From Acidobacteriota bacterium (GTDB lineage Bacteria > Acidobacteriota > Terriglobia > UBA7540), in assembly GCA_902812415.1 (NCBI GenBank), contig CADDZJ010000001.1:124001-188000 (forward strand): a stretch of 64,000 bases of DNA, written 5' to 3'. The notes beneath the pieces are model-generated. The model worked only from the letters and a program-made list of their open reading frames with translations. It ran no database searches and was not told where the DNA came from. Every line of letters starts with the position of its first letter. Position 1 is the stretch's first letter. Positions 59,920-64,000 of this stretch are shown piece by piece. The translations under genes and the position numbers were made by a program.

Positions 59920-60252
59920 CAGGAATTTTCGAAATTCCCAAAACTAGCCTGTAGCACAAACTATACCCATGGAAACATCCCGCAGTGTTTTTCATCCTTT
60001 GACACTCCGCCATTTAGCATACCGCGACACTCGTATTCGTCAAATCAGCAATTTTTATAATTGGTATCAATGAAAGCCATCATCGTGGCGATCCCCATGT
60101 ACGTCCTGATTTGTGATGCCTCAGCGTGGCTGAAACCTGCAGAGCTTTTAATCTTCGATAGAAGATATTACGAGTCTCAGGATTTCCTTTGGACTTTACT
60201 TTCGTTTTTTGTTCGCTTATTATCTTGACTCTGGGGGGAAGGAGACATTTTC
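59920..60252. other. Upstream region of the PolB cassette
   Basis: A gap of about 330 bases between the divergent ilvB promoter and the cassette. The SD GGAAGGAG lies before the 60253 ATG. A TATTAT at about 60218 could be a -10 box, with only a weak -35 (TTACTT) 16 bases upstream. No convincing LexA-type palindrome was found by eye. A 52-codon frame at 60070-60228 lacks an SD and is not called. Confidence 0.4.
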
Positions 60253-60927
60253 ATGGAAAGATCGAGAATAGCTTCCGCCGTCGCGACCCAACCCTGGCAA
60301 CTGCCGATAGAGGGCCTGGCACTTTTCGAGGGTAATTCCGATGTGACACGTCTAAGTCACTACTTTATACCGAGCATTATTCAGGACGGTAAAAGCATCC
60401 TGTTCCTCGATGGAGCTAACTGCGCCGATCCCCGCTTGGTGGCCAAGCTAACCGGTCGGCGCGGCATACGCTTTGGAGAAGTTAGCCGCCACATCCGGAT
60501 CGCTCGCGCCTTTACCTGCTTTCAACTTACAGAACTTATCGCGCGTGTTTCGCGATTTATTGTGGCATTCCCTGTCAACGTTTTGATTGTCACTGCGTTC
60601 CCAGAACTCTATTTTGATGAAGATGTGCGAAACCCGGATGCGTGCGTCGCCTTTCAGCAAGCTCTCTTTCATCTGCGCCGGTTGAGTAGGAAGGGTGAGC
60701 CACCACTGAGTGTGGCTGCTTTCACATCTTCCGAACGGTTTGTTCCACCAGCTGCCCGCAGAAACTTCCTGCCCCAGACCCGCGCCGTAGCAAGCGAGCT
60801 TTGGAGATTTGAAATTGATGCGGAAGGCAAGCTTGCGCTCGTGCAGCGGCCTCAACCCTACGAGCTACGAGCGCAGAGCCAGCGGACGCCAAAGGGAGCC
60901 ATACCGGTGAGGCCATCCATGAGGTGA
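60253..60927 (+). CDS. RadA/RecA-fold protein lacking Walker motifs (ImuA-like role?)
   Basis: A 224-aa protein whose core resembles archaeal RadA/KaiC-type RecA domains. GKSILFLDGANCADPRLVAK and HIRIARAFTCFQLTELIARV align with the RadA pattern of a strand ending in D-x-E/N, a helix starting PxR, then VARAF. The P-loop position (residues about 24-36) reads LFEGNSDVTRLSH with no GK[ST], and the Walker B strand LIVTAF (111-116) lacks the Asp, so ATPase activity is not expected. The last 40 residues are basic and proline-rich. It is the first gene of a four-gene unit with a family B polymerase. By analogy with ImuA it may recruit or regulate the polymerase. Confidence 0.72.
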   Translation: MERSRIASAVATQPWQLPIEGLALFEGNSDVTRLSHYFIPSIIQDGKSILFLDGANCADPRLVAKLTGRRGIRFGEVSRHIRIARAFTCFQLTELIARVSRFIVAFPVNVLIVTAFPELYFDEDVRNPDACVAFQQALFHLRRLSRKGEPPLSVAAFTSSERFVPPAARRNFLPQTRAVASELWRFEIDAEGKLALVQRPQPYELRAQSQRTPKGAIPVRPSMR

Positions 60928-60930
60928 TTT

Positions 60931-61278
60931 ATGGGCCGTACTATCGCGACCTTTCGCGATCTTATCGAACAGGAGTTACAAAACTGGCGGCGCACGTTTG
61001 GCCGCGCACTTCGGCGGGATGAACGCGCCTACTTGGAATCCATGTTCAGGAGGGTGCGCTTGTACGCACAGGCTTGCACCTATCAGTTTCCAGTGGACGC
61101 GATGGACGCGATCAACGTGTCCGTAGAACTCGATCACGAAATTCGTTTGCGCGCGATTGAGGCGCGCCTGGGGATTAAGCTTGAAGCTCTTTGGATGGAT
61201 TCTCGACCTTTATCCGAGTCGCGAAGGGATGACATTGTGGCTGGTCGAAGCGAACGGGAAGCGCCGCCGTCTAATTGA
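60931..61278 (+). CDS. Small helical protein of the PolB cassette, unknown
   Basis: A 115-aa protein, predicted mostly helical and rich in Arg and Glu (FRDLIEQELQNWRRTFGRAL, DERAYLESMFRRVRLYAQAC). I do not recognise the family. Its start is 3 bases after the stop of the RadA-like gene, and its last 98 bases overlap the predicted polymerase start, indicating coupling. A segment DHEIRLRAIEARLGIKLEAL could be an adaptor helix. It probably works with the polymerase, but this is inferred from position only. Confidence 0.7.
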   Translation: MGRTIATFRDLIEQELQNWRRTFGRALRRDERAYLESMFRRVRLYAQACTYQFPVDAMDAINVSVELDHEIRLRAIEARLGIKLEALWMDSRPLSESRRDDIVAGRSEREAPPSN

Positions 61279-63439
61279 CCGGTCATTTCGCGCCCGCTTC
61301 TACGTTCATGGTCCGCAGGCCCAACTTTCGCGCCTTGCCCAAGCGATTACCGCACGTTTTCCTGCCCACTGCGCGCTTGCCGAGAGGCTTAACATTTGGG
61401 ACAGGCATGCGTTGCGCGTACTGGAAGTCGCAACCCATCACCTGCCGCTGTTTTCCACACTTGCCCATTTTGTGCGCCGGTTTGATGGTAGCCTTCGGCT
61501 CTACAACTCTGATTTAATGCTCGCCGTCGTCTATTGCTGGGACAAGGGAGTCTTTCCACTGGCTCGCCTCTCAGCAGAGGCCAGCGACTCGGGTGAAATC
61601 CGCTCGCTCGCCTGTGAGGATGATGAATGGTCCAGCCGCTACGATCTCCCGCCGCTCCGCATCATGCAGATTCGGCTTGAAGGTTTCGGTCGAGTGAATC
61701 CGAAACATGGACGTTATGGAGCGCTCGAAATTGCCGTCGACGATAAGTGGCTGACTTTGGACGATTCGGACGAGCCCGCTGTAGCAGGCTTCGCGCGCCT
61801 CCTTCGCACGCACGATCCCGATGTCATTGTCAGTGAGTGGGGAGACGCGGTGCTATTTCCGAAGTTACTCCGGCAGGCGGCCTGGCGGAAGGTTCGTCTT
61901 TCTCTGAACCGCGAGCCAGGTTCTGTCCAGCGAAGCGCGGCGCGAAGCTACGTGAGCTATGGCCGAATTCTGTTCAAGCAGAGCGCCACCACGTTGCTCG
62001 GCAGACTTCATATTGATACGGAGAATTCCTTCATCGCCGGCAACTGCGAACTTGCGGGCCTGTGGGAGTTGGCGCGAGTGACGAAGCTTCCCATTCAATA
62101 TGCGGCGCGGACGACCACGGGCACCGGCATTTCTTACATGCAGATGGAGATGGCCTATAAGGACGAAACCTTGATCCCGGAGCAGAAGGCCGAGCCGGAA
62201 AACCCGAAACCCCTTTCAGAGCTTCTCGTGGCTGATCGGGGCGGATTGGTCTTTGCTCCACGGCCGGGTTTCTTTGAAAATGTCGCTGAGTTGGATTTCA
62301 TCAGCGAATATCCGAGTATCATGTCAAGGTTCAATGTCTCGCCCGAGACGGTGAATTGCGCGTGCTGCCCGAACAGCCCGCGAGTGCCTGAAATCGGCTA
62401 CCGCGTGTGTCAGCGCCGACGTGGAATGACCAGCCGGGTCGTCGAGAAGCTCATTCGGAAGAGACAGCAATACAAGGAGCAGGCCGCTGAGAATCCCTCT
62501 CAGGCCACGCTCTTCAAACTGCGGAGCAATTCCTTAAAGTGGCTGCTGGTATGTTGTTTCGGCTACACCGGCTATAGAAACGCGAGGTTTGGGCGCATTG
62601 AAGCCCATGAAGCAATCAACGCCTTGGCGCGTGAAAAATTGCTTCAGGCGAAGGAGATCGCCGAGGAGCAGGGCTTTCAGGTGCTTCACGCGCTGGTGGA
62701 TTCACTCTACGTCCAGCGGGCCAATGCCACACATGAAGACTATGAACAACTTGCCCGCCACATCGAAGCGAGCGTTGGCCTGCCACTGGCGCTGGAAGCT
62801 GTCTACCGTTATGTTGTCTTCCTGCCTTCCAAGCAAAGCGCCGAGATCCCGGTTCCAAACCGATTCGCTGCTGTTTCTGGAAATGGCGAGTTGAAAATTC
62901 GGGGTCTCGAATGCCGTCGTCATGACACACCCCCACTCATTGCCAGAATGCAGCGCGAGGTGCTCTCGATTCTCGCTGAGGCCGTTGACTTTGAGACCTA
63001 TTGCATCAAGCTGAGCGATGCGCGCGAAGTCTATCAGCGTTATCTCAAACGCCTAACCGATGGAAGCGTACTGCCTGAAGAACTCATGGTCAGCAAACGC
63101 CTCTCACGCACGCCCCGCGAGTATCGGAAAAACAGTTTCACGGCCATTGCTGCCCGGCAATTAGAGCGAGCAGGCGTCAAGCTACGTCCAGGTGAAGCGA
63201 TTGAATTCATCCTCACCCACGTGGATTCCGCCCTGCCCGATGATCGCGTCCGCGCCTGGACATTATGGGAAAACTGGAGAGGTTACGATATACAAGCGTA
63301 CTGCAAGGCTTTAGAAAAAGCCTTTCAGCCTTTCGTACACTTTGCACCCCTCGTCATGTGCGAAGCCACTTCCAGGTCTCGCCCTGGGGTTAAGAAATCG
63401 GCAGACCCCACCGGTGTTATTCCGCCGCTCTTCCGATAA
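61181..63439 (+). CDS. Archaeal-type family B DNA polymerase (PolB2-like) with dead exonuclease domain
   Basis: A 752-aa protein (start TTG 61181 after GGGGA; ATG 61229 or TTG 61157 are alternatives). The N-terminal ILDLYPSREGMTLWL matches the PolB N-terminus. Exo I reads RIMQIRLEG (160-168) where DIE is expected and Exo II reads SEWGDAVLF, so proofreading is lost. Motif A, DFISEYPSI, keeps catalytic D372. Motif B reads LKWLLVCCFGYTGY (K453) in place of KxxxNSxYG. Motif C reads HALVDSLYV, losing the first Asp of DTD but keeping D507. The two metal-binding Asp residues thought essential are therefore present. This pattern resembles archaeal PolB2/Dpo2. It may be a translesion enzyme. Confidence 0.85.
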   Translation: MKLFGWILDLYPSREGMTLWLVEANGKRRRLIDRSFRARFYVHGPQAQLSRLAQAITARFPAHCALAERLNIWDRHALRVLEVATHHLPLFSTLAHFVRRFDGSLRLYNSDLMLAVVYCWDKGVFPLARLSAEASDSGEIRSLACEDDEWSSRYDLPPLRIMQIRLEGFGRVNPKHGRYGALEIAVDDKWLTLDDSDEPAVAGFARLLRTHDPDVIVSEWGDAVLFPKLLRQAAWRKVRLSLNREPGSVQRSAARSYVSYGRILFKQSATTLLGRLHIDTENSFIAGNCELAGLWELARVTKLPIQYAARTTTGTGISYMQMEMAYKDETLIPEQKAEPENPKPLSELLVADRGGLVFAPRPGFFENVAELDFISEYPSIMSRFNVSPETVNCACCPNSPRVPEIGYRVCQRRRGMTSRVVEKLIRKRQQYKEQAAENPSQATLFKLRSNSLKWLLVCCFGYTGYRNARFGRIEAHEAINALAREKLLQAKEIAEEQGFQVLHALVDSLYVQRANATHEDYEQLARHIEASVGLPLALEAVYRYVVFLPSKQSAEIPVPNRFAAVSGNGELKIRGLECRRHDTPPLIARMQREVLSILAEAVDFETYCIKLSDAREVYQRYLKRLTDGSVLPEELMVSKRLSRTPREYRKNSFTAIAARQLERAGVKLRPGEAIEFILTHVDSALPDDRVRAWTLWENWRGYDIQAYCKALEKAFQPFVHFAPLVMCEATSRSRPGVKKSADPTGVIPPLFR

Positions 63440-63448
63440 ACTCATGCT

Positions 63449-64000
63449 ATGGCAAAAACTTGGATGATTCGCATCGGCACGGCAGGGTGGTACTATCCCG
63501 ACTGGCGCGGGATTGTCTATCCCCAACACAGGCCCCGAAACTTCCATGAGTTGGAATACTTGACGCAATTCTTCAACACCCTGGAAATCAATACGAGCTT
63601 TTATAATCCGCCTCGCGCCGAACTGGTCAAGGAATGGATTCGCCAGATCGAAGGCAATAAGAACTTTCTGTTCACTGCGAAACTCTGGCGGCGATTTACT
63701 CACGACCGGAATGCGACACTGGAAGATGAGAGACTATTCAAACATGGGATCAATCCGCTCGCAGAAAAAAACCGGCTTAGAGCAATTCTCCTTCAGTTTC
63801 CTTGGTCATTCAAAAACGATCCGGAAAACCGCCGGTATCTTGCAGAACGCTGCAGGCAGTTCCGCGAATACCCTCTAGTCCTCGAAGTTCGGCATAGTTC
63901 ATGGAACACACCACAAGTTCTGGAAATGCTCAGTGAACTGGACGTGGGATTTTGCAATATCGACCAGCCCTTCCTTAGTCGCTCGATCAGACCGACCGAG
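63449..64000 (+). CDS. DUF72 (YecE-like) protein, partial, runs off the window
   Basis: The first 184 codons of a protein starting at ATG 63449, 9 bases after the polymerase stop. Family segments are visible: IRIGTAGWYYPDWRGIVYP, LEINTSFYNPPRAE, FLFTAKLWRRFTH, ILLQFPWSF and LEVRHSSWNTPQ. DUF72 proteins are TIM-barrel proteins of unknown function, usually 240-300 aa, so roughly 60-110 residues are missing. The tight spacing makes it the fourth gene of the cassette. Confidence 0.88.
   Translation, partial: MAKTWMIRIGTAGWYYPDWRGIVYPQHRPRNFHELEYLTQFFNTLEINTSFYNPPRAELVKEWIRQIEGNKNFLFTAKLWRRFTHDRNATLEDERLFKHGINPLAEKNRLRAILLQFPWSFKNDPENRRYLAERCRQFREYPLVLEVRHSSWNTPQVLEMLSELDVGFCNIDQPFLSRSIRPTE

Follow-up and report, generated by a model that had tools for sequence, protein, structure and literature searches.

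The PolB2 mutasome, composed of the polymerase PolB2, the RadA-like protein iRadA and the small protein PPB2, was described by Timinskas, Timinskas and Venclovas in 2025 (PMC11791011) and modelled as a heteropentamer, with a PPB2 trimer and with PolB2 and iRadA joined via a RadA-type oligomerisation motif. According to that account, iRadA-PPB2-PolB2 is the sole gene order reported for bacteria; LexA, DUF72 and SRAP occur as neighbours; polymerase motif C has its first Asp replaced in the PolB2 group, or kept in some TACK archaea; and a clamp-binding motif in iRadA or PolB2 is found in only a fraction and is not defining. The archaeal PolB2, Dpo2, polymerises and extends mispaired ends although it has no exonuclease and its motif C reads IID, without the first Asp (PMC8764526), and it is solely responsible for damage-targeted mutagenesis (PMC7390963). 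Here we analysed a 64,000-nucleotide stretch of DNA ("the window": bases 124001-188000 of contig C1 in the 4.84-Mb draft genome of a soil Acidobacterium), whose last 4 kb carry four genes, all on the + strand. By all defining sequence features that could be tested, this operon belongs to the PolB2 mutasome family. The type of system is already described, and the window operon adds another copy of it; two features go beyond the published accounts that we found, namely an operator of the type present at lexA and a near-exclusion with DnaE2. The main text of PMC11791011 gives no operator sequence and relates the system to neither DnaE2 nor Acidobacteriota.

Proteins and gene order of the window operon

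The third gene encodes a family B polymerase (Pfam, E 1e-25), with a nearly full-length match to the NCBIfam type B polymerase model (E 9e-122) that lies under the model's curated cutoff. Its best solved relatives were archaeal PolBs (E 1e-57), far ahead of Pol II (5e-8). Alignment to P. abyssi PolB revealed an inactivated exonuclease: motif I reads SLAC in place of DIET, and the Asp of motif II is replaced by Leu. The original prediction, made from the sequence of the window, of an archaeal PolB2-like polymerase with a dead exonuclease was therefore borne out. It had not mentioned the loss of the first Asp of motif C (HALVDS), a PolB2 hallmark: where the motif could be read, it was LVD or IVD in 58 of 60 relatives. 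In addition, the PolB2-specific D-R motif matches by spacing the DK of Sulfolobus islandicus PolB2. In several PolB2 genes from genomes of the same family (L010, L012, L013, L014, L017, L018 and L020), in-frame insertions resembling dispersed repeat DNA were seen (for example, the peptides RDSGLETRDSQ..NPESRTPNP and LTPDPSPQGRG) at two loops, one ahead of the dead exonuclease motif I and the other in the stretch from polymerase motif A to motif B; the window PolB2 has none of them.

The first gene encodes iRadA, which matched archaeal RadA structures by sequence (E 1.3e-5 over ~110 residues) and whose predicted fold was the RadA/Rad51 core (E 1.4e-10, TM about 0.6). Neither the RadA N-terminal domain nor Walker motifs were present, as expected of the family and in agreement with the proposal of a RecA-fold protein that has lost its ATPase motifs; among 72 iRadA relatives, the Walker A pattern GxxxxGK[ST] was matched once, inside an N-terminal extension. 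The second gene encodes PPB2. In the alignment of its relatives M1, G2, R3, T4 and R9 were invariant and MGRTIATFR varied only at positions 5-6, and the MGRT/Arg9 pattern was found at the N-terminus of 71 of 75 relatives. The model of the PPB2 monomer consisted of three main helices at low confidence, and a fold search with it gave no match. The window operon thus resembles the described PolB2 mutasome in its three proteins, their order, the MGRT and D-R motifs, the lost motif C Asp and the dead exonuclease, and differs from mutasomes with a canonical clamp motif in iRadA or PolB2.

The three genes also stay together. Within the same family, PolB2 was matched in 21 of 39 genomes, and all complete loci had PPB2 and iRadA directly upstream. 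A wider scan, with one genome per species across GTDB, yielded 80 PolB2 loci in Acidobacteriota, Nitrospirota, Chloroflexota, Bacteroidota, Ignavibacteriota, Chlorobiota, Elusimicrobiota and other phyla; 75 of these have PPB2 and 72 have iRadA, with the genes arranged iRadA-PPB2-PolB2 on a single strand. The loci without the full trio were mostly cut by contig ends; a genuine exception was an Ignavibacteriales locus (L091), where the 8 kb upstream of PolB2 contain neither iRadA nor PPB2. Polymerase homologues thus retained their partners rather than occurring mostly alone, and the packing was far above chance, supporting the view that the genes form one unit. Of 151 sampled genomes of the class, 31 have PolB2, 29 have iRadA and 28 have both; one genome (G030) carried an iRadA (C72:7737-8294) and two DnaE, and no PolB2 was found in it. 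The trio was also present on four haloarchaeal plasmids, and the PPB2 profile also matched in haloarchaea. A complete trio, including a PPB2 with MGRT, lies on Leptospira phage LE1 (KF114879, L153:3186-6454), where it is annotated merely as hypothetical proteins and DNA polymerase family B.

The predicted positions, the gaps of 3 bases (iRadA-PPB2) and 9 bases (PolB2-DUF72) and the 98-base overlap of PPB2 and PolB2 were all confirmed. This overlap requires a TTG start at 61181; in most acidobacterial relatives a TTG or ATG lies within the PPB2 frame at most one codon from the same position, and in several the PolB2 frame leaves no room for an earlier start. Because the start position is kept in relatives, the overlap of ~98 bases is real.

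The fourth gene encodes a DUF72 protein (Pfam PF01904, E 4.7e-35; PDB 1vpq, E 2.2e-37), whose full length (306 aa, L002:9449-10369) lies within the contig; the contig stops 582 bases past the window end. DUF72 was found within 8 kb of PolB2 in 16 of the 80 loci, in several of them directly adjacent and co-directional, a proximity well above chance at ~2 DUF72 genes per genome. Of the proposed four-gene cassette, the iRadA-PPB2-PolB2 part is constant, while DUF72 is an optional neighbour and occasional fourth gene. Many DUF72 proteins (loci L178, L052, L107, L044, L165, L167 and L176) end in peptides resembling beta-clamp-binding motifs: PQQSSLF in E. coli YecE (L178), and RQSSLFD, EEQSLF, PRQTMLF and AEQTNLF in others; the window DUF72 has RQIELTF close to its C-terminus. 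Judging by such peptides, DUF72 could serve as a clamp tether of PolB2 operons. An early survey reportedly included Duf72 among clamp-motif proteins. Other neighbours within 8 kb were a lexA-like gene, which 23 of the 80 loci have at a median distance of 89 bases, and, in four loci, an SRAP-like gene named from sequence and published enrichment.

In a PolB tree covering bacterial and haloarchaeal PolB2s and E. coli Pol II, with its root and the archaea-to-bacteria direction taken from PMC11791011, the window PolB2 was placed among Terriglobia PolB2s and the acidobacterial copies formed one clade; the haloarchaeal PolB2s, ~31% identical to the window PolB2, were a separate group, and E. coli Pol II was remote on a very long branch. 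The polymerase thus groups with bacterial PolB2 and not with E. coli Pol II. One Terriglobia PolB2 operon (L089) did not join the acidobacterial clade and was placed close to copies from Chloroflexota and Nitrospirota; the C-terminus of its iRadA is QLRLF, a canonical clamp motif.

An operator shared with lexA

A sigma-70-like promoter precedes iRadA, and its -35/-10 spacer is occupied by a direct repeat with an 11-base period (Table 1). The sequence TTGAC-TTTCGCTTTTTATTCGCC-TATNAT precedes iRadA in 25 of 28 acidobacterial operons; the repeat core, expected 0.01 times per 350 bases, was observed in 25 of the 28 acidobacterial iRadA promoters. Exact matches to the box in the 4.84-Mb genome numbered three: the PolB2 operon promoter, the lexA promoter and a site upstream of an SplB-like radical-SAM gene. 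Since the operator is common to PolB2 operons and to the genome's own lexA promoter, the PolB2 operon is likely under LexA/SOS control. GTTC-N7-GTTC, with the same period as the window repeat, is said to be a LexA box type of Acidobacterium capsulatum and Alphaproteobacteria. Operator hits were kept only at two mismatches or fewer, because at three mismatches the pattern was no commoner than its reversed control. The exact box at the SplB-like gene lies at G000:C59:6237 (L124), and this class is counted as an SOS gene in Bacteroidetes; a box with one mismatch (G000:C1:74523, L125) is found between mutS and a divergently oriented gene with an apparently exonuclease-like product.

Table 1. Features of the PolB2 operon and its promoter, in window positions
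Feature	Position	Strand	Basis
Sigma-70-like promoter, TTTACT-17-TATTAT	60195..60223	+	Consensus scan; layout TTGAC..TATNAT in relatives
Putative LexA box TTTCGTTTTTTGTTCGC, direct repeat TTTC-N7-GTTC	60200..60216	+	Kept in relatives; genome matches
iRadA, RadA/Rad51-core protein, 224 aa	60253..60927	+	No Walker A or B
iRadA segment replacing Walker A, FEGNSDVTRLSHYF	60325..60366	+	Alignment of relatives
PPB2 (arCOG07300-like), small helical partner	60931..61278	+	N-terminus MGRTIATFR, alignment, profile
PolB2 polymerase, 752 aa, TTG start	61181..63439	+	Reading frame, Pfam/NCBIfam, alignments
Degenerate exonuclease motif I, RSLACEDDEW	61601..61630	+	Aligned to DIET of P. abyssi PolB
PolB2-specific D-R motif, ADRGGL	62231..62248	+	D352 and R353 invariant
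Polymerase motif A, ELDFISEYPSI, catalytic Asp retained	62288..62320	+	Alignment
Polymerase motif C, HALVDSLYV, Leu for first Asp	62687..62713	+	Alignment
DUF72 TIM-barrel protein, cut at window end	63449..64000	+	Pfam PF01904, PDB 1vpq

Relation to DnaE2 and to other mutasomes

The window genome encodes a single DnaE and a single Y polymerase, which is DinB-like; besides PolB2 no further family B polymerase was found in it, and neither DnaE2 nor ImuB. Among the 151 genomes of the class, a second DnaE was present by domain hits in 3 of the 31 PolB2 genomes vs 98 of the 120 others (Fisher test, 1e-13), and in a within-family permutation an overlap that small was reached in 0 of 20,000 trials. 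In two of these three PolB2 genomes, PolB2 is partial only. Both of the second DnaE genes that were inspected proved to be DnaE2, and one of the two adjoins a protein passing the ImuA cutoff. Moreover, an ImuA-like second RecA-type hit was found in 1 of the 31 PolB2 genomes vs 79 of the 120 others, ImuA being counted as a second hit besides RecA because the curated cutoff for ImuA proved too stringent in this class, with 1 of 151 genomes above it. No report of this near-exclusion was found in the main text of the two papers concerned. By these counts, PolB2 probably replaces ImuA-ImuB-DnaE2 in this Terriglobia lineage. We lean slightly towards a broader reading, in which the SOS response of Terriglobia would be built around an archaeal-type PolB2 mutasome rather than ImuA-ImuB-DnaE2, the two being interchangeable, with one or the other kept and both under LexA.

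By analogy, the window operon would work like ImuA-ImuB-DnaE2 and E. coli Pol V while being a member of neither. It resembles ImuA-ImuB-DnaE2 in the pairing of a putatively error-prone polymerase with an inactive RecA-like subunit and in its likely LexA control; unlike it, that system uses a C-family polymerase and the Y-family ImuB, neither of which is in the window genome. Pol V (UmuD'2C-RecA) likewise combines a polymerase, a RecA-fold partner and a small oligomeric subunit with an inserted N-terminal arm, as compared from published models (PMC11791011), but its polymerase is of the Y family and its RecA is active. Sulfolobus islandicus Dpo2 shares with the window polymerase the PolB2 family, the exonuclease loss and the lost motif C Asp. 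Dpo2 is damage-inducible (PMC8764526, PMC7390963), as the window operon may be; it is archaeal and has another regulator.

Alternative readings and a proposed mechanism

Several lines of evidence, namely the family assignment of all parts, the retained gene order and co-occurrence of iRadA, PPB2 and PolB2, the operator and the nearby lexA-like genes, the near-exclusion with DnaE2 and ImuA, and the activity of archaeal Dpo2, point to the window operon as very probably a bacterial PolB2 mutasome, LexA-controlled and acting in translesion synthesis at stalled ends. The predicted damage-tolerance unit, built on a bacterial PolB2 and parallel to ImuA-ImuB-DnaE2, is thereby supported, with the activity argued by analogy. 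SOS induction is suggested by the operator, while complex formation and translesion activity would follow from published archaeal and modelling work. Several points weigh against this reading: i) no expression, binding or activity data were found for any bacterial PolB2; ii) PolB2 is patchy and absent from three sampled genomes of the same genus; iii) one genome (G138) has a full PolB2 together with DnaE2 and ImuA; iv) the near-exclusion comes from one class, from draft and related genomes and from counts of domain hits; and v) no QxxLF-type beta-clamp motif lies in the last 45 residues of the window iRadA or PolB2.

It is improbable, in our estimate, that PolB2 is catalytically dead here and that the complex acts at stalled forks in a structural or regulatory role, an idea put forward in 2008 for archaeal PolB2. 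Such a role would fit the Leu or Ile that replaces the first motif C Asp in nearly all readable relatives, and the exonuclease, dead as well; but conservation is strict for the Asp of motif A, the second Asp of motif C and the residues around them, and archaeal Dpo2 is an active polymerase with the same Asp missing.

Still less credit is due to the view that the operon is left over from, or merely carried by, a mobile element or phage and is not a host repair system. The patchy distribution, the trio on phage LE1 and the position of the L089 copy in the tree would all agree with a mobile origin, whereas no integrase or phage genes were found beside the window copy, the host amino-acid genes ilvB, ilvC and proC lie upstream of it, and the acidobacterial copies form one clade with a common host LexA-type operator. 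Finally, an accurate repair polymerase like E. coli Pol II that lies near a RecA-like gene by chance, which would share the B family and an SOS link in bacteria, has next to no probability given the loss of the exonuclease motifs, the far better archaeal PolB/PolB2 matches and the obligate partners iRadA and PPB2; compared with Pol II (the PolB G1 group), the window polymerase has neither an intact DEDDy exonuclease nor the DxD motif.

For the operon as a LexA-controlled PolB2 mutasome, the following course may be proposed. DNA damage would inactivate LexA and open the promoter; iRadA, presumably no longer binding ATP, and a PPB2 oligomer (a predicted trimer) would hold PolB2 at the stalled primer end; and PolB2, without proofreading, would extend mismatched or lesion-opposed termini so that translesion synthesis is completed. 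DUF72 would be co-transcribed as an accessory protein, perhaps acting as a helper that is nuclease-like or tethered to the clamp.

The PolB2 mutasome has so far been known from archaeal genetics and structural modelling only. With a recognisable, putative LexA operator in a bacterial operon, and with cultured members in the class, the role of the mutasome becomes open to experiment. If it is true that the PolB2 and DnaE2 mutasomes exclude each other, an archaeal-type complex would have displaced the bacterial one in the SOS response, and both mutasomes could be compared in closely related hosts.

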